The notes under the pieces are model-generated. The model was given only the letters and a program-made list of their open reading frames with translations. It did no database searches and was not told where the DNA came from. From contig NZ_MTQN01000009.1 of the NCBI RefSeq assembly GCF_001984195.1, positions 310,001 through 374,000 of the forward strand: a DNA stretch of 64,000 nt. Direction: 5' to 3'. The DNA is from Kribbella sp. ALI-6-A (GTDB taxonomy: Bacteria; Actinomycetota; Actinomycetes; Propionibacteriales; Kribbellaceae). Both the position numbers and the translations under genes were made by a program. Shown in pieces: positions 1 to 10,422 of this stretch (its first letter is position 1; every line of letters starts with the position of its first letter).

Positions 1-2
1 TG

Positions 3-1355
3 ATCGTGCTGATCCAGCGGGTCTTCAAGGGGTTCATGGCCACGGTCGCCGTCCTGATCGGCCTGGTCGTCGGCACGCTGGTCGCCTGGGCGCTGGGTGA
101 CGCGCACTTCGACGCGGTCGCCGACTCCGGCTGGGTCGGGATCACCACGCCGTTCTACTTCGGCTGGCCGCAGTTCTCGGTCGCCGCGATCATCTCGATG
201 GTCGTCGTCATGCTGATCACCGCGGTGGAGACCACTGGTGACGTCTTCGCGACCGGTGAGATCGTCGAGAAGCGGATCGGCCGCGAGGACATCGCCCGGG
301 CCCTGCGCGCGGACGGCCTGGCCACCACGATCGGTGGCGTCTTCAACTCCTTCCCCTACACCTGCTTCGCCGAGAACGTCGGACTGGTCCGGCTGACCCG
401 GGTGAAGAGCCGCTGGGTGGTCGCCGCGGCCGGCGTGATCATGATCCTGCTCGGTCTGGTGCCCAAGGCGGGCGCGATCGTGGCCGGCATCCCGCATCCG
501 GTGCTGGGCGGTGCCGCCCTGGCGATGTTCGCCACCGTGGCCGTCGTCGGCTTCCAGACCCTGACCAAGGTCGACTTCCACGACCACCGCAACGTCGTGA
601 TCGTGGCGACCAGCGTCGGCCTGGCGATGTACGTCACCGCGCAGCCGCAGGTCGCCCAGGCGGTGCCCGGCTGGGCCGAGATCATCTTCGGCAGCGGGAT
701 CACGCTCGGCAGCCTGACCGCGATCGTGCTGAACATCGTCTTCCACCACGTCGGCAAGGACTTCGGCCCGGCGGTGGCCGGCCAGCCCGGCGCGAGCACG
801 GTCCGGCTGGACCAGGTCAACGAGATGAGCCGCGAGGAGTTCGTCGAGACCTTCGCCGGGCTCTTCCAGGGACCGCGCTGGATGGTCGAGCGTGCCTGGG
901 ACATGCGGCCGTTCGCCGACACCCACGCGCTGCGGCGCTCGTTCCAGGAGGCGTTGTTCTCCGGGTCGCACGAGGAGCAGCGCGAGCTGATCGAGTCCTA
1001 CCCGCAGCTCGGGTCGCAGCTCGTCGCCGACGGTCTGAGCGGCGAGGCGTCGCTGCGGGACCAGGCCGCGCGCGGGCTGACCTTCCTGGCCGAGCCGGAA
1101 CGCGACGAGCTGGCGACGATCACCGAGCAGTACCGCGAACGCTTCGGCTTCCCGCTGGTGATCTCGGTACGCGACGCGGACTCGTTCGCCCGGATCGTCG
1201 AGCAGGGCCGCGAACGCCTCGGCAACTGCGAGAACCAGGAGCACGCCGCCGCCCTGCTGGAGATCGCGAAGATCGCCGGCTACCGGTTCGACGACTTCCT
1301 GACCGACGCCAATCCCATCCACAGCGCAAGGACCCGCTGGAGCAGCAACCGATGA
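3..1355 (+). CDS. NCS2 purine permease fused to an OHCU-decarboxylase-like domain (5' partial)
   Basis: The reading frame is open at the window edge, so the N-terminal transmembrane half lies outside. The first ~255 visible residues are an NCS2 (xanthine/urate) permease: hydrophobic helices, the conserved VETTGD segment and the substrate-motif region FAENVGLV. From ~residue 280 a soluble domain follows that matches the OHCU decarboxylase family along its length (RPF, a helix-rich core, ERFGFPLVISVRD). Where the family has the catalytic His of HPxL/HPxI this domain has Tyr (YPQLG, codon 999-1001), and the usual EQ has become DQ (codon 1059-1061). It overlaps xdhA by 4 bp, so it is the upstream gene of the xanthine dehydrogenase operon. 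Role inferred: proton-coupled uptake of urate or xanthine; the C-terminal domain may be non-catalytic. Confidence 0.85.
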   Translation: MVLIQRVFKGFMATVAVLIGLVVGTLVAWALGDAHFDAVADSGWVGITTPFYFGWPQFSVAAIISMVVVMLITAVETTGDVFATGEIVEKRIGREDIARALRADGLATTIGGVFNSFPYTCFAENVGLVRLTRVKSRWVVAAAGVIMILLGLVPKAGAIVAGIPHPVLGGAALAMFATVAVVGFQTLTKVDFHDHRNVVIVATSVGLAMYVTAQPQVAQAVPGWAEIIFGSGITLGSLTAIVLNIVFHHVGKDFGPAVAGQPGASTVRLDQVNEMSREEFVETFAGLFQGPRWMVERAWDMRPFADTHALRRSFQEALFSGSHEEQRELIESYPQLGSQLVADGLSGEASLRDQAARGLTFLAEPERDELATITEQYRERFGFPLVISVRDADSFARIVEQGRERLGNCENQEHAAALLEIAKIAGYRFDDFLTDANPIHSARTRWSSNR

Positions 1356-2784
1356 GTACGACGATCAAGGTCAACGGCCAAGACCTCCCGCTCGGGGGCG
1401 CCTCCGTCCACACCACCACGCTCGACTGGTTGCGCGACCGCGGCCTGACCGGCGCCAAGGAAGGCTGCGCCGAGGGCGAGTGCGGGGCCTGCTCGGTGCT
1501 CGTCGCCCGCCCCGGCATCGACAGCCCGACCGAGTGGACCGCGATCAACGCGTGCCTGGTGCCGGTCGCGGCGCTGGACGGTCAGGAGATCGTCACGTCC
1601 GAGGGCCTGGGCACGAGCTCGGAGCTGCATCCGGTGCAGCGGGAGCTCGCGGTCCGCGGTGGATCCCAGTGCGGCTTCTGTACGCCGGGCTTCGTCTGCA
1701 GCATGGCGGCGGAGTACTACCGCCCCACCCGTACTGCTTCTGCTGAAGAAGACTGTGAGCACGGGCCGAACGGCTTCGATCTGCACTCGCTGAGCGGCAA
1801 CCTGTGCCGGTGCACCGGCTACCGGCCGATCCGGGACGCGGCGTACGCACTGGGAGACCCCGACGGCGACGACACGTTCGCCGCCCGCCAGTCGAGTCCT
1901 CCTCCCCCGCCGGCGCCTACACGACTCACGGTGAACGGTGCGGAGTTCGTCCGGCCGGAGCAGCTGGACGACGTACTGGAGTTGATCGCCGAATGTCCCG
2001 AGGCGAAGGTCGTGGCGGGGTCGACCGACACGGGCGTCGAGGTGAACCTGCGCGGCGTGCGGCCTTCCCTGGTCGTCGCTGTCGATCGGCTGCCGGAGCT
2101 GCGGGAGTTCTCGATCGACGACGAGCAGGTCCGGATCGGCGCCGCGCTGACGCTGACCGAGGTCGAGCGCCTGCTCGCCGGGCGGGTCCCGCTGCTGGAA
2201 CAGCTGTTCCCGCAGTTCGCCTCGCGGTTGATCCGCAACGGGGCGACGATCGGCGGCAACCTCGGCACGGGGTCCCCGATCGGCGACACTCCGCCCGCGC
2301 TGCTCGCGCTCGACGCCTCGCTCGTCCTCGCTTCCCGCCGCGGCGAGAGAACTGTCGCCCTGGCCGACTACTTCACCGGATACAGGGAAACACTCAAGGC
2401 GCCGGACGAGCTGATCCGTGCCGTCCTGATCCCGTTACCGCTCGCGCCGCTGACCGCGTTCCACAAGATCGCCAAGCGTCGCTTCGACGACATCTCCAGT
2501 GTCGCGGTCGGCTACGCGCTCGACGTCGTGGACGGCGTCGTCCGCGAGGCCCGCATCGGGCTCGGCGGTGTCGCGGCCACGCCGATCCGCGCTCGCGCGA
2601 CGGAGCAGGCGCTGGTCGGTCGCCCCTGGACCGAGCGCACGGTCCGCGAGGCCGCCGCGGTGATGGCTACCGAAGGCACCCCGTTGGACGACCACCGCGC
2701 CAGCGCGTCGTACCGGTCGGCGATGCTCGGCCAGTCGCTCCTCCGCTTCCACGCCCAGCAGCTCCACGTCGAGGGGGTCAGCGC

Positions 2785-2788
<4 letters not shown>
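1352..2788 (+). CDS. xdhA: xanthine dehydrogenase small subunit (2Fe-2S and FAD)
   Basis: At 478 aa this has the usual length of the bacterial XdhA subunit. The N-terminal ferredoxin domain shows Cys39, Cys44, Cys47 and Cys68 for the first cluster; Cys107, Cys110, Cys152 and Cys154 (CGFC and LCRC) bind the second. A linker with a PPPPPAP stretch leads to the FAD domain (~185-360) with VAGSTDTG and RNGATIGGNLGTGSPIGD, then the CO-dehydrogenase flavoprotein C-terminal domain. The subunit passes electrons from the molybdenum site on XdhB to FAD and then NAD. The ATG overlaps the permease stop (ATGA), and its own stop overlaps the xdhB start in the same way, which suggests translational coupling. 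Confidence 0.95.
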
Positions 2789-5140
<2,352 letters not shown>

Positions 5141-5148
<8 letters not shown>

Positions 5149-5980
5149 GATGGAATGGATGCGAGCGGTTCAGCGCCTCCGGGAGCAGCGGCTGCCCGGA
5201 GTGCTGGTCACCGTGGTCTCGGTGCGTGGGCACTCACCGCGCGAGGCCGGAGCCAAGATGGTGGTCTCCGCCGAACGGACCTGGGCGACGGTCGGCGGCG
5301 GCAATCTGGAGATGGTTGCCGTCGACCGCGCCCGCGCGATGATCGCCGAGGGACCGACTCAGCCCGAGGTGCTGGAGTTCGCGCTGTCGGACAAGGCGCC
5401 GTACCAGCAGGCAGTGCAGTGCTGTGGCGGTGAGGTGAAGTTGCTGCTCGAGCCGCTGCCGGTCGTGCCGTCCGTCGCGATCTTCGGTCTCGGGCACGTC
5501 GGCCTCGAGCTCGCGCGCATCCTTGCGCGGCACGACCTCGAGCTGCACCTGGTCGACTCGCGACCCGATCAGCTGACACCCGAGCGGCTGTCCGTCCTGG
5601 ACGACGCCGTCGCCGGGGTCCACGTCCATCAGGTCCCGGTGCTGCCCGAGCTGGTGGTCGGCGAACTGCCACCCGGCACGCACGTCCTGGTGATGACCCA
5701 CGACCACGCGGAGGACGCTGCCCTGTGCGACGCGGCCCTGCGCAGCGGGCACCTGGCGACGATCGGCCTGATCGGCTCCAGCGCGAAGTGGGCGCGGTTC
5801 CAGCGCAAGCTCGCCGAGGACGGCAACTCGCCCGAGGCGATCGCCAGGATCACCACCCCGATCGGCCTGCCGGACCTGTCCGGCAAGGAGCCGGCCACGA
5901 TCGCTGTCAGCGTCGCGGCCCGCCTGCTGCAAATGTTCATTGCCGAGCGCACCACCGCGCCGGCCCAGCGTGAGGCATAA
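5141..5980 (+). CDS. xdhC: xanthine dehydrogenase accessory protein XdhC
   Basis: The 279-aa protein has the XdhC N-terminal domain (VTVVSVRGHSPREAGAKM, then QCCGGEVKLLLEPLP) and a Rossmann domain beginning VAIFGLGHVGLELA. XdhC proteins bind molybdenum cofactor, help sulfurate it and insert it into the large subunit. The GTG start overlaps the xdhB stop by 8 bp; an alternative ATG at 5150, 1 bp after that stop, would shorten the protein by three residues, and neither has a strong Shine-Dalgarno sequence. Its place directly after xdhAB supports the assignment. Confidence 0.92.
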
Positions 5981-5982
5981 GA

Positions 5983-7275
5983 ATGACCCTGTTCCGAGGC
6001 ACGTTCCTCGACACCCCTGACAACCCGTTCACCGGTGGTTCGTTGCGAGTGGCAACCGACGCCGCCCTGCTGGTCGAGAACGGTGTGATCCGTGCCCGCG
6101 GCCCCTTCGCGGAGCTGCGCCGCGCGCACCCGGCCGAGCAGGTCGTTGACCTGACCGGCGGGCTGGTGCTGCCCGGGTTCGTCGACACCCACGTGCACTT
6201 CCCCCAGATCCGCGCGGTCGGCGGGATGGGCATGCCGTTGCTGGAGTGGCTCGACCGGTACGCGCTGCCGGAGGAGGCCAAGATGGCCGACTCCGCGTAC
6301 GCCGCCAGTGTCGCCGACGAGTTCGTCCGTGGCCTCGTGGCCGCCGGTACGACGAGCGCGATGGTCTTCGGCGCCCACTACGTCGACGCGATGGACACGC
6401 TGTTCACCGCCGCGGCCCAGGTCGGGCTGCGAATCACCAGCGGCCTGGTCGTCAGCGACCGGTTGCTCCGGCCCGACCTGCTGACGACGCCCGAGCGCGC
6501 CCACGCCGAGTCGATCGCGCTGGCCTCCCGCTGGCACGGCGTCGGCCGCAACCGGTACGCCGTGACGCCGCGCTTCTCGCTGTCGTGCACCGACGAACTG
6601 CTCGAGGCGTGTCACGCCGTCCTGACCGAGGTCCCCGACGCGTGGTTCACCTCGCACCTCAACGAGAACGAGGCGGAGATCGCCACCGTCGCCGAGCTGT
6701 TCGGCGGCAGCGACTACCTCAGCACGTACGACCGGCACGGCCTGGTCGGCCGCCGGAGCGTCTTCGCCCACAACGTCCACCCCACCGACGTCGAGCTGAA
6801 GCTGCTCGGCACGAGCGGCGCCACCGTGGCGCACTGCCCCACCAGCAACGCCGCGCTCGGGAGCGGGCTCTTTCCGATCGGCCGGCATCTCGACCACGGC
6901 GTTCGCGTCGCGCTCGGGTCGGACGTCGGCGCGGGCACCGGATTCTCGCTGCTGAAGGAAGGGCTCCAGGCGTATTTCTGCCAACAGCTGCTTGGCGACC
7001 ACGGCCACCCGCTGACGTCGGCCCACCTGCTGCACCTGGCCACCACCGCCGGGGCCACGGCGCTCGGCCTCGACGCAGAGATCGGCGATCTGAGCGTCGG
7101 TAAACGCTTCGACGCCCAACTGCTGCGCCCGGCGGACAACTCCCCGCTCGGCGTGGGCATCACGCACGCGGCCGACGCCGAGGACGTGCTGGCCAGGATC
7201 TTCACGCTCGGCACCCCGGCCGACGTCCGTGCCGTCTGGATCGACGGCGAACTGCTGACCCCTGAGGAGGCCTGA
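5983..7275 (+). CDS. guaD: guanine deaminase
   Basis: A 430-aa amidohydrolase that converts guanine to xanthine, the substrate of the enzyme encoded just upstream. Metal-ligand motifs are in order: VDTHVHFPQ, the HLNENEAEI segment, FAHNVH and GSDVGAGTG with the metal-binding Asp. The FPQIRAVGGMG and PTSNAALGSGLFP stretches are typical of GuaD and separate it from cytosine or adenosine deaminases. It starts 2 bp after the xdhC stop, so it is in the same operon. Confidence 0.92.
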   Translation: MTLFRGTFLDTPDNPFTGGSLRVATDAALLVENGVIRARGPFAELRRAHPAEQVVDLTGGLVLPGFVDTHVHFPQIRAVGGMGMPLLEWLDRYALPEEAKMADSAYAASVADEFVRGLVAAGTTSAMVFGAHYVDAMDTLFTAAAQVGLRITSGLVVSDRLLRPDLLTTPERAHAESIALASRWHGVGRNRYAVTPRFSLSCTDELLEACHAVLTEVPDAWFTSHLNENEAEIATVAELFGGSDYLSTYDRHGLVGRRSVFAHNVHPTDVELKLLGTSGATVAHCPTSNAALGSGLFPIGRHLDHGVRVALGSDVGAGTGFSLLKEGLQAYFCQQLLGDHGHPLTSAHLLHLATTAGATALGLDAEIGDLSVGKRFDAQLLRPADNSPLGVGITHAADAEDVLARIFTLGTPADVRAVWIDGELLTPEEA

Positions 7276-7277
7276 CC

Positions 7278-7784
7278 GTGGACCTGCGCGCGTTCAACGC
7301 TGTGCCCGACGAGCGGCTCAGACCGATGCTCGCCGCCTGCTGCGACGTCGACCGCTGGGTCGACCGCGTGCTCGCCGGCCGCCCGTACGACGACGTCGCG
7401 GCGCTGACCGAGGTCGCGGACCAGGCGGCGCGCGACTTCGACGAGAGCGAGGTCGAGCGAGCGCTCGCGGCACATCCACGGATCGGTGATCGCGCGGACG
7501 GCGAAAGCACCGAGGCGTCGTGGTCGCGCGACGAGCAGGCCGGCGTCGGCGAAGACACCGGCGTCCGGGCTGCGCTTGCCCAGGGCAACCGTGAGTACGA
7601 GCAGCGGTTCGGCCGGGTCTTCCTGATCTGCGCGACCGGCCTGTCGGCCGGCGAGCTGCTCGCGGAGCTGCGCCGGCGGCTGGGCAACGACGAGACCACC
7701 GAGCGGGGCGTCGTACGGGACGAGCTGCGCAAGATCGCCGTGCTGCGGCTCGGCAAGGTCGTCGACCAGGAGATCTCGGTATGA
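7278..7784 (+). CDS. uraD: OHCU decarboxylase
   Basis: This 168-aa protein decarboxylates 2-oxo-4-hydroxy-4-carboxy-5-ureidoimidazoline to S-allantoin, the last step of urate breakdown to allantoin. The catalytic motif is intact: HPRIG with the essential His, followed by SRDEQAGV carrying the Glu-Gln pair. It also has YEQRFGRVFLICATG, the short-type equivalent of the FGFPFI segment. The GTG start has GAGGAGG (7264-7270) upstream. It overlaps the next gene by 4 bp. It is the canonical counterpart of the degenerate domain fused to the permease at the start of the window. Confidence 0.93.
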   Translation: MDLRAFNAVPDERLRPMLAACCDVDRWVDRVLAGRPYDDVAALTEVADQAARDFDESEVERALAAHPRIGDRADGESTEASWSRDEQAGVGEDTGVRAALAQGNREYEQRFGRVFLICATGLSAGELLAELRRRLGNDETTERGVVRDELRKIAVLRLGKVVDQEISV

Positions 7785-8137
7785 GCACCGTCAGCACGCA
7801 CGTCCTGGACACCGGCCTGGGCCGGCCCGCGCGCGGCGTACCGGTCAGGCTGTCGCGGATCGCCGACGAGCGTCCGGGTGACCGGGCCGCCGATCTGGTG
7901 GTCGAGCTCGGGTCCGGCTGGACCGACGAGGACGGCCGGATCAAGGACCTCACCCCGCACGGGCTCGCGCCCGGCACGTACCAGCTCCGGTTCGACGTCG
8001 CCGCCTACGCGGCCGCGTCCGGCCAGGAGATCTTCTTTCCCGAGGTCACCGTGACCTTCACGATCACCGACGAGCGGCACCACCACGTCCCGCTGCTGCT
8101 CAGTCCGTTCGCGTACTCCACCTATCGAGGGAGCTGA
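7781..8137 (+). CDS. uraH: 5-hydroxyisourate hydrolase (transthyretin-like)
   Basis: A 118-aa protein that hydrolyses 5-hydroxyisourate, the product of urate oxidase, to OHCU. The N-terminal STHVLDTGLGRPARGVPV and the C-terminal YRGS tetrapeptide are the hallmarks of the hydrolase branch of the transthyretin fold. The ATGA overlap with uraD and the downstream urate oxidase place the three enzymes of urate degradation side by side. Confidence 0.95.
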   Translation: MSTVSTHVLDTGLGRPARGVPVRLSRIADERPGDRAADLVVELGSGWTDEDGRIKDLTPHGLAPGTYQLRFDVAAYAAASGQEIFFPEVTVTFTITDERHHHVPLLLSPFAYSTYRGS

Positions 8138-8141
8138 TCCG

Positions 8142-9047
8142 ATGGCGATCCACCTGGGAGCCAACCAGTACGGCAAGGCCGAGAGCCGCGTCGTCCGCAT
8201 CTACCGCGACACCCCGCGGCACCAGATCCGCGACCTCAACGTGTCGTCGGCGTTGCGCGGCCGGTTCGAGGACGCCCACATCAGCGGCGACCAGGCCGAG
8301 GTGCTGCCGACCGACACCCAGAAGAACACCGCGTTCGCGTTCGCCAAGGAGAAGGGCGTGGGCGCGATCGAGGACTTCGCGCTCACTCTCGGCGACCACT
8401 TCCTCGCCGCCACCCCGGCCGCCGACGGCGCGCGGATCGCGGTCGAGGAGTACCCGTGGGAGCGGATCCTGGTCGACGGCCAGGAGCACGACCACTCCTT
8501 CGTCCGGTCCGGCGCCGGCGTCCGGACCACGGTCGTCAACGTCGAGGGCCGCGGCAGCGAGCGGACAGCGTACGTGGTGTCCGGGATCAGCGACCTGGTG
8601 GTGCTGAAGTCCACCGGCTCGGAGTTCCACGGCTTCCGCAAGGACAAGTACACGACGCTGCCGGAGACCAACGACCGGATCCTCGCGACGTCGCTGGTGG
8701 CCCGGTGGCGCTACGACCACACCGAGGTCGACTGGGACAAGTCGTACGACGAGATCAAGGCCCTGCTGCTCGAGCAGTTCGCCAGGATCCACAGCTACGC
8801 GCTGCAGCAGACGCTGTACGGCATGGGAGAGGCGGTGCTCGAGCGGCACCCCGAGGTCGCGGAGATCAAGTTCTCGGCGCCCAACAAGCATCACTTCCTG
8901 GTCGACCTGAGCCCGTTCGGCGTGGAGAACCCCGGTGAGGTGTTCATCGCCGCGGACCGGCCGTACGGGTTGATCGAGGCGACCGTCGTCCGCGACGACG
9001 CCAGCGACGCGGGCAGCGCCTGGCACGCCGTTCCCGGCTTCGTCTGA
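8142..9047 (+). CDS. pucL: urate oxidase (cofactor-free uricase)
   Basis: The 301-aa protein oxidises urate to 5-hydroxyisourate with O2 and without a metal. It has both tandem T-fold halves, the TDTQKNTAFAFAKEKG segment with the conserved Thr and Lys of the active site, and the C-terminal SAPNKHHFLVDL. A strong GAGGGAG ribosome site precedes the ATG. It sits 4 bp after uraH, consistent with one transcript from the permease to the following amidohydrolase. Confidence 0.95.
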   Translation: MAIHLGANQYGKAESRVVRIYRDTPRHQIRDLNVSSALRGRFEDAHISGDQAEVLPTDTQKNTAFAFAKEKGVGAIEDFALTLGDHFLAATPAADGARIAVEEYPWERILVDGQEHDHSFVRSGAGVRTTVVNVEGRGSERTAYVVSGISDLVVLKSTGSEFHGFRKDKYTTLPETNDRILATSLVARWRYDHTEVDWDKSYDEIKALLLEQFARIHSYALQQTLYGMGEAVLERHPEVAEIKFSAPNKHHFLVDLSPFGVENPGEVFIAADRPYGLIEATVVRDDASDAGSAWHAVPGFV

Positions 9048-9054
9048 GGCCGGC

Positions 9055-10422
9055 GTGCGGACGAGCGCCGGACCGATCGTCGTCGACGGGGCGACGGTGG
9101 TCACCCTCGATCCGGACCGGCGCGAGTTCGCGACCGGGCATGTTGTTGTCGAGGGCAACCGAATTGTCGCTGTCGGCGCCGGACCGGCACCGGCGCACGA
9201 GGGCGCGAGGGTGGTCGACGGGCGTGGGTGTCTGCTCACGCCCGGCCTCGTCAACACTCACCAGCATCTGTATCAGTGGGTGACGCGCGGGCTCGCGCCT
9301 GATGCCGGGCTGTTCGAGTGGCTGACGACGCTGTACCCGGCGTGGGCGGGCATCGACGAGGAGTCGGTGCACGTCGCGGTGACGGGCGCGCTCGCTCAGC
9401 TCGCGCGGACCGGGTGCACGACGGCGGCGGATCACCACTACGTCTTCCCTCGCGCGGGTGGGGACGTGTTCGCGGCGGAGATCCTCGCCGCGGCCGAGGT
9501 GGGACTGCGGTTCCATCCTGCGCGGGGTTCGATGGACCTCAGCGTCAAGGACGGCGGGTTGCCGCCCGACACGGTAGTGCAGGACCGCGACGAGATCCTG
9601 CGCGCGACCGAGGCGGCGATCGACCGCTGGCACGATCCTTCCCCCGGCTCGATGCTCCAGGTCGCCGTGGCGCCGTGCTCGCCGTTCACCGTGACCGGCG
9701 AGCTCATGCGCGAGGCGGCCGAACTCGCCCGCCGGCGAGGCGTGCGGCTGCACACGCACCTGGCCGAGACGACCGACGAGGCCGACTGGTGCGAGCACCG
9801 ATTCGGCTGTACGCCGTCGGAGTACGCCGAAGAGCTCGGCTGGACCGGGTTGGACGTGTGGTTCGCGCACGGCATCCACTTCGGCGACGCGGAGATCAAG
9901 CGGCTGGGGCAGACGGGCACCGGCGTCGCGCACTGTCCCAGCTCCAACGCGCGACTCGGCGCCGGGATCGCCCGCGTGGCCGACCTGCGCGCCGCTGGGT
10001 GCCCGGTCGGGCTCGGGGTGGACGGTGCCGCGAGCAACGAAGCCGGCAGCCTGCTCGAGGAGGTCCGCCACGCCGTCCTGTTCGCCCGGGCCCGGGGTGG
10101 CCCTCGATCCTTGGACGTCCGGTCCGCCTTGGAACTGGCGACCCTGGGAGGCGCACGCCTGCTCGGCCGCGAGCACGAGATCGGCTCGATCGAGGTCGGC
10201 AAACTGGCCGACCTCGCGGTGTGGCGGCTCGACACGCTCCCGCACGCGGGGATCGCCGATCCGGTGGCGGCGCTCGTCCTGGGCGCTCCCCCGCCGCTCG
10301 AACTCCTGCTGGTGAACGGCCGGCCGGTGGTCGAGCGCGACACGGTGATCACCGTCGACGAGTCCGCCGTGGCCGCCCAGGTCGCACAAGCCCAGCAGGC
10401 CCTCCTCGCCAAGGCGAGGTGA
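9055..10422 (+). CDS. 8-oxoguanine deaminase-like amidohydrolase
   Basis: A 455-aa amidohydrolase of the AtzB/TrzN-SsnA branch. Metal-site motifs are TPGLVNTHQHLYQW, HTHLAET, FAHGIHF, HCPSSNARLGAG and GVDGAASNE. The DAGLFEWL and CTTAADHHYVFP segments resemble proteins annotated as 8-oxoguanine deaminase, which make urate directly. The GTG start lies 7 bp after the uricase stop, so the product would feed the neighbouring enzyme. A hydroxyatrazine-like or other aminohydrolase substrate cannot be excluded from sequence alone; the purine context favours 8-oxoguanine. Confidence 0.75.
   Translation: MRTSAGPIVVDGATVVTLDPDRREFATGHVVVEGNRIVAVGAGPAPAHEGARVVDGRGCLLTPGLVNTHQHLYQWVTRGLAPDAGLFEWLTTLYPAWAGIDEESVHVAVTGALAQLARTGCTTAADHHYVFPRAGGDVFAAEILAAAEVGLRFHPARGSMDLSVKDGGLPPDTVVQDRDEILRATEAAIDRWHDPSPGSMLQVAVAPCSPFTVTGELMREAAELARRRGVRLHTHLAETTDEADWCEHRFGCTPSEYAEELGWTGLDVWFAHGIHFGDAEIKRLGQTGTGVAHCPSSNARLGAGIARVADLRAAGCPVGLGVDGAASNEAGSLLEEVRHAVLFARARGGPRSLDVRSALELATLGGARLLGREHEIGSIEVGKLADLAVWRLDTLPHAGIADPVAALVLGAPPPLELLLVNGRPVVERDTVITVDESAVAAQVAQAQQALLAKAR

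Follow-up and report, generated by a model that had tools for sequence, protein, structure and literature searches.

A purine permease of Kribbella with a C-terminal OHCU-decarboxylase-like domain that has lost its catalytic histidine, a probable pseudoenzyme

We find that an NCS2 purine permease of Kribbella sp. ALI-6-A carries at its C-terminus a domain related to OHCU decarboxylase (UraD) in which the catalytic His is replaced, and that this replacement is fixed among the fused proteins that we compared. The original prediction called this domain a pseudoenzyme attached to a transporter, and the comparisons support that well: His has been exchanged for Tyr or Phe throughout, the exchange of Glu for Asp is near-fixed, the fold is retained, purifying selection acts on the domain, and a true UraD is encoded in the same operon. 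Loss of a catalytic residue across a whole clade together with purifying selection is the pattern of a maintained pseudoenzyme, and decarboxylation of OHCU to (S)-allantoin has probably been lost in the fused domain. Our best guess at its role puts ligand-sensing regulation first, dimer stabilisation second and enzyme docking third.

The window, by which we mean the whole 64,000-nt stretch that was analysed, opens inside the fused gene, so the reading frame seen at 3-1355 is the 3' part of a longer gene whose protein (P0001) has 642 aa (Table 1). Pfam places Xan_ur_permease at residues 25-408 (357.6 bits) and OHCU_decarbox at residues 465-621 (121.5 bits, cut-off 24), and no domain beyond these two (PF00860 and PF09349) was found in P0001 at E 0.001, so there is no STAS domain. 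Among the NCBIfam models, residues 28-440 match TIGR03173 (522 bits, cut-off 414) and TIGR00801 (376 bits, cut-off 291.8), both of which are matched by 58/58 aligned fused proteins at E 0.001, and the OHCU-like domain scores 109.8 bits with TIGR03164, above its cut-off of 96.25. P0001 also contains the stretch ENVGLVRLTR, an instance of [QEP]NxGxxxxT[RKG], which we take to be the NAT signature in TM10 of NCS2 carriers. In its whole membrane domain, then, the protein is like the NCS2/NAT/SLC23 permeases (PbuX, UapA, UraA), and it is probably specific for xanthine or urate, but it differs from them in having a conserved C-terminal cytoplasmic domain. Mean consensus frequency among the fused proteins is 0.62 in the linker, 0.65 in the domain and 0.75 in the C-terminal tail. 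The tail motif DANPIxxAR, of which A, N, P, A and R are invariant among 13 Actinomycetes fusions (alignment A2), was seen neither in the stand-alone UraD of the same genome nor at the ends of the three Rubrobacter-like/f62 fusions that we inspected.

Table 1. Features of the fused gene and of the genes that follow it, in window coordinates
Feature	Position	Strand	Basis or remark
Fused NCS2 permease / OHCU-decarboxylase-like gene, 3' part	1..1355	+	Start 573 bases before the window, L003:9427 = G000:C4:309427
NCS2 membrane domain, C-terminal part (to residue 440)	1..746	+	TIGR03173, xanthine permease subfamily, 522 bits
Linker from last membrane helix to OHCU-like domain (residues 441-464)	747..818	+	Conserved about as well as the domain
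OHCU-decarboxylase-like domain (residues 465-621)	819..1289	+	PF09349 121.5 bits; TIGR03164 109.8 bits
Tyr525 codon TAC, His67 position (zebrafish numbering)	999..1001	+	Codon read and alignment
Asp545 codon GAC, Glu87 position (zebrafish numbering)	1059..1061	+	Codon read and alignment
Arg620 codon CGG, Arg161 position	1284..1286	+	Codon read; Arg in 101/102 fused domains
Tail motif DANPIxxAR, C-terminal to OHCU-like domain	1305..1331	+	Alignment A2
Xanthine dehydrogenase small subunit	1352..2788	+	TIGR02963 432 bits, below cut-off 467; start overlaps fused-gene stop by 4 bases
Xanthine dehydrogenase molybdopterin (large) subunit	2785..5148	+	TIGR02965
XdhC accessory protein	5141..5980	+	TIGR02964
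Guanine deaminase	5983..7275	+	TIGR02967
Canonical stand-alone UraD (HPRIG, DEQAG)	7278..7784	+	TIGR03180, UraD_2 type, 174.5 bits
5-Hydroxyisourate hydrolase	7781..8137	+	TIGR02962
Urate oxidase	8142..9047	+	TIGR03383
8-Oxoguanine deaminase	9055..10422	+	NF006055

We take His67 (zebrafish numbering), from the crystal-structure literature, and Glu87 to be catalytic residues of OHCU decarboxylase; our literature search found no mutational evidence on His67. Tyr in place of this His and Asp in place of this Glu had been claimed from the window alone, and both codons read as claimed; the Ser84 position is Ser542. To the question whether His-to-Tyr is fixed across the fusions, the answer is that the loss of His is fixed and that the replacement is Tyr or Phe: among 102 distinct NCS2-fused domains the position is Tyr in 93, Phe in 9 and His in none, counted as distinct sequences with exact duplicates merged and including many close relatives, so that these are not independent events. 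The opposite case, in which homologues usually have the His and the window carries a sporadic change, was looked for and is not what we see, and sporadic mutation or sequencing error as the source of Tyr525 is ruled out by the Tyr or Phe in every distinct fused domain. At the Glu87 position the same domains have Asp (97) or Glu (5), and at the Arg161 position Arg in all except one, which has a gap. His and Glu are both present in 137/146 stand-alone OHCU domains, counted in the same way; reading frames with a domain score <40 or a span <110 residues were left out of both sets. Because Tyr is replaced by Phe only, it is the aromatic ring that seems to be kept, with the hydroxyl dispensable.

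The nine stand-alone exceptions are of three kinds. L144 is a fragment at a contig edge that bears the linker of a fusion, L234 and L236 are broken or deleted stand-alone domains, and L230-L233, L235 and L237 are a Streptomyces-type paralogue without the catalytic segment (L235 has a His in the aligned column). This last group is a second dead-looking OHCU decarboxylase, in six Streptomyces-like (f22) genomes, in which an OHCU-like domain lacks the segment with HPxIG and SxxEQ; the reading frames are L288:9952-10503 on the minus strand (184 aa) and those of the six loci just named. An Sdh_cyt-like (succinate dehydrogenase) gene adjoins the segment-less frame in 6/6 distinct loci, L288 and L289 being repeats of two. 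We took f22 as Streptomyces-like because its permeases group with that of Streptomyces sp. BHT-5-2.

That the domain keeps the fold of its family, as first supposed, is borne out by its PF09349 score and by its predicted structure. An AlphaFold2 model of the domain from 68 fused-clade sequences (67 of the 69 domain representatives plus the window's own) has pLDDT 88.8 and pTM 0.85, and it superposes on zebrafish OHCU decarboxylase (2o70) with Z 23.9 and rmsd 1.4 Å over 168 aligned residues; its best matches are OHCU decarboxylases, and the first unrelated row has Z 5.5. A full-length model, made from 57 of the 65 full-length representatives plus the window's own protein, has a pTM of 0.67, too low for a reliable domain arrangement. 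With the UraD enzymes (2o70, Klebsiella 3o7h, Agrobacterium 2o8i; TIGR03164) the fused domain shares the fold, Arg161, Pro68, Leu70 and the FG.P loop, but unlike them it has no catalytic His, has Asp for Glu, sits behind a permease and, in the genomes checked, is accompanied by a further OHCU-domain gene. Based on a few residues and the predicted fold, the pocket is probably retained. The SxxEQ stretch is remodelled and shortened in the Rhodococcus/Gordonia-type fusions, so conservation of the pocket is uneven.

A site that keeps the fold, an Asp and an Arg, and that scores above the TIGR03164 cut-off, might be an altered enzyme, with Tyr, Asp and Arg carrying out another reaction or a slow decarboxylation. 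We regard this as improbable, since Phe in place of Tyr in nine of the distinct domains removes hydroxyl chemistry and a true UraD is co-encoded; more generally, the Phe forms argue against hydroxyl chemistry at position 67.

The domain is under constraint. Pairwise dN/dS across 24 Kribbella genomes has a median of 0.102 in the permease part, 0.159 in the fused domain and 0.245 in the stand-alone UraD, the active enzyme (simple counting method; the 24 are the genomes common to 30 fused and 28 stand-alone loci, and the pairs are not independent). By this measure, constraint on the fused domain is no weaker than on the working enzyme. We set 36 fused domains against 19 of TIGR03164 type, naming columns by the consensus letter of the enzymes and the zebrafish number. 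The columns fixed in both sets with different residues are E23Q, H67Y, A71G, T81G, E87D and L162F, written from enzyme to fused domain. Columns newly fixed in the fused clade include R45, Q49, Q60 and L119, and enzyme-specific columns released in it include S25, P26, G72, E83, A91 and N108. Because columns are differently fixed and polar residues (R45, Q49, Q60) are newly fixed, we read this as new constraint, or re-specialisation, and not as decay.

The fusion occurs in many soil actinobacteria. It is found in 35/38 Kribbella genomes; no such permease was found in the remaining three at E 1e-40, and loss of the domain without loss of the permease was not seen among the 38. We scanned named genomes with peptide patterns chosen to omit the catalytic positions. 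The best 80 of 199 related loci belong to Kribbella, Nocardioides, Intrasporangiaceae, Geodermatophilaceae, Pseudonocardia, Mycobacterium, Rhodococcus, Gordonia and others, and the His67 position in these 80 is Tyr in 77, Phe in 3 and His in none (in one of them, L153, the Tyr lies upstream of a frame break). One record, L103, labelled Streptomyces sp. SID13031 (NZ_JAAGLV010000001.1, 953472 bases), is probably mislabelled and belongs to the genus Kribbella. A class sample had the fusion in 10/394 genomes. In a phylum sample of 396 genomes, scanned with the Pfam model and so without bias to fused forms, OHCU domains occur in 72 genomes, and 13 single-frame NCS2 fusion domains, each with Tyr or Phe at the His position, occur in 12, Rubrobacter-like genomes included; matches in open frames shorter than about 450 aa were judged too short for a fusion and mostly left out. 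The family f60 was taken as Rubrobacter-like because its L205 shares 103 consecutive residues exactly with an R. radiotolerans plasmid.

Among plasmids, 38/615 matching records cover at least 80% of the protein, and in the 60 records listed, annotated single-gene fusions occur only in Rhodococcus and Rubrobacter. The Rhodobacteraceae plasmid matches are in two pieces, spread over several genes where annotated, and a one-piece match in Rhizobium tropici was rejected as a fusion, being an unfused permease frame without an OHCU domain. No fusion with an intact His was found in the Kribbella set, the named loci, the class and phylum samples or the plasmid matches listed.

The fusion genomes compared in Kribbella and in the phylum sample also encode a second OHCU-domain gene. 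In the window, the genes 3' of the fusion lie on the same strand, nearly abut one another and are purine-catabolic (Table 1); the canonical UraD that had been noted 6 kb downstream in the same operon is there, with both of its motifs. A second OHCU-domain gene is present in 34/34 fusion-bearing Kribbella genomes, and all 28 of the 34 sequences examined have the His; in the phylum sample a His-bearing OHCU-domain gene is present in 12/12 fusion genomes. The named loci have a stand-alone UraD in 40/80, a count made in 18.5-kb stretches that miss some neighbours; it is partly low in Kribbella because the flank is only 9 kb, and in G019, a Kribbella genome, UraD lies about 9 kb from the fusion on the opposite strand. 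Because the short flanks undercount, we rely on whole-genome counts for co-occurrence. According to the accessible part of PMC4617892, the permease gene msmeg_1293 of M. smegmatis adjoins msmeg_1294 (OHCU decarboxylase) and is nitrogen-regulated with it, and the pair may belong here.

A branch with SH-aLRT 98 separates the 36 fused domains from the rest in the tree of 104 OHCU domains. Their neighbours are stand-alone enzymes of TIGR03164 type from Rubrobacter-like genomes and Deinococcus, and the UraD_2-type enzyme encoded in the window's operon lies far away. In a tree of 56 rows from which the catalytic columns were taken out, the fused clade has support of 100/99 and calls for one change from His to Tyr/Phe. 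Rows in the domain trees were thinned by identity, L144 and L230-L237 were omitted, and Kribbella is one row (L102). On these sequence trees the fused domain is shown to have a single-clade origin, and the loss of His is old and not local, being common to Rubrobacter-like genomes. An origin of the fused domain as a duplicate of the operon's UraD is ruled out, as the two lie on different major branches and match different NCBIfam models.

The state before fusion is likely that of Deinococcus and Priestia plasmids, where a permease gene is directly followed by a uraD with intact His. In Deinococcus the two genes overlap by 4 bases; in Priestia they share a frame, with 3 bases between them. Some Rubrobacter-like genomes hold both states next to each other, as in L201, where a fused permease is followed by an unfused one and by an intact UraD. 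The unfused neighbours of Deinococcus and Priestia suggest an old spatial coupling, and together with the presence of UraD within 1.5 kb of the fusion in 8/9 other fusion loci of the class sample they favour a docking platform, in which the domain would bring the real UraD, UraH or uricase to the transporter and so allow channelling. We think docking unlikely, though a rival to reckon with: the UraD of the window's lineage comes from a distant branch of the family, so one would not expect an ancestral UraD-UraD interface to have persisted.

The permease tree, in which the window's own permease is L256, needs four changes of label between fused and unfused (three of them forced) and carries long-branch warnings. 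Three Rubrobacter-like fusions, L206-L208, have permeases that group with unfused Deinococcus and Rubrobacter-like ones and domains (L182, L184 and L192 in the domain trees) that group with other fused domains. Movement of the domain from one permease backbone to another, which seems to have happened, would fit this conflict, as would fission or a second fusion. The domains of L206-L208 have retained Glu at position 87, but the Gln after it is Arg (SVRER in two). Unfused permeases of a Streptomyces clade nest inside the fused ones, subject to the same long-branch warnings; the members of this clade (L266-L270, L285, L290:4482-6140) are about 60% identical to the fused permease. By sequence this is an apparent loss of the domain, and since unfused permeases nest in the fused clade, transport presumably works without it. 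These permeases offer a natural control for the function of the domain.

This loss is what could be said for the domain being an evolutionary leftover, a harmless drifting fusion. We consider that highly improbable: the dN/dS of the fused domain is lower than that of the active UraD of the same genomes, a test of selection that already disfavours drift, and the fusion is kept in nearly all Kribbella genomes and across the phylum.

NCS2 carriers have cytoplasmic termini, so the fused domain should hang below the carrier as STAS hangs below SLC26. The likeness to SLC26/SulP proteins with STAS is one of position, a related membrane fold with a cytoplasmic domain directly behind the last helix, as far as the available part of PMC6497670 describes them; but the domain here is not STAS and the fused permease is not a member of that family. 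The same part of that source says that SLC4 and SLC23 hold no carboxy-terminal domains, and that deletion of STAS lowers SLC26 transport with dimers still forming. A structural module, which would stabilise the permease dimer or set its geometry with no ligand involved, has several points for it: the NCS2 carrier UapA is dimeric and its dimer is proposed to matter for function (PMC4837479, in the portion accessible), the OHCU-decarboxylase fold is dimeric in at least one enzyme crystal, the linker is conserved, and the newly fixed polar residues lie outside the catalytic triad. We hold it to be unlikely, if still a serious contender, as it leaves the Tyr/Phe at the His position, the Asp at the Glu position and the kept Arg161 unexplained, as the source of the crystal dimer, in the part available, considers it unlikely that the full-length plant protein forms this dimer, and as STAS, by analogy, is dispensable for SLC26 dimers.

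Our preferred explanation, which we rate at somewhat below an even chance, is that the dead OHCU-decarboxylase domain at the cytoplasmic C-terminus regulates an NCS2 purine (xanthine/urate-type) symporter, probably by ligand sensing. The pocket would be lined by an aromatic ring (Tyr, in some lineages Phe), an Asp and the old Arg. The retained Arg161, acid at 87 and aromatic residue at 67 are what one would look for in a pocket that binds a planar metabolite without turnover, and the pocket may still hold a flat metabolite of the purine pathway, be it urate, OHCU or allantoin. The conserved linker would then relay occupancy to the membrane domain, so that uptake is tuned to pathway flux. The remodelled SxxEQ stretch of the Rhodococcus/Gordonia-type fusions and the nested unfused Streptomyces permeases weigh against this explanation. 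More loosely, we entertain as possible the specific version of a metabolite-sensing transporter in which one ancient change of His to an aromatic residue gave a ring that stacks on the purine or ureide, and the resulting non-turnover sensor gates uptake.

OHCU-decarboxylase domains joined to a partner from the pathway are already known in active or presumed active forms: plant TTL (UraD-UraH), which is active according to the part of PMC2834698 that was available, the allantoin synthase 5z5m and Deinococcus UraD-PucL. The last of these (L241) keeps the catalytic His, unlike the NCS2 fusions. What seems new here is a single-origin pseudoenzyme module on a purine transporter, found from Rubrobacter-like genomes to Kribbella. 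Reuse of relatives of urate-pathway enzymes is seen in transthyretin, which derives from HIU hydrolase, and in the co-opted avian uricase (PMC4324301 and PMC10517255, as far as the accessible text of each goes); these are animal proteins and involve other enzymes. Our literature search, which mostly did not cover subscription journals, found no paper on the NCS2-OHCU fusion or its loss of His. The domain pair itself, we presume, may well be visible in domain databases.

The fused domain passes the cut-off of an NCBIfam equivalog model for UraD, which makes it a probable source of annotation error. A 665-aa fused permease on a Rubrobacter radiotolerans plasmid (L243:4588-6585) is annotated simply as uraD, a decarboxylase, and the equivalog-level score could cause such misannotation more widely. 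For the family, the finding is a C-terminal domain on an SLC23/NCS2 lineage (in Rubrobacter-like genomes, Kribbella, Nocardioides, Intrasporangiaceae, Pseudonocardia, Rhodococcus and Gordonia) that derives from an enzyme of the very pathway supplied by the carrier. The fusion offers a compact natural system in which to study the control of a transporter by a dead enzyme. If the metabolite-sensing reading is true, this carrier would be, to our knowledge, the first of the SLC23/NCS2 type to have a cytoplasmic regulatory domain built in.
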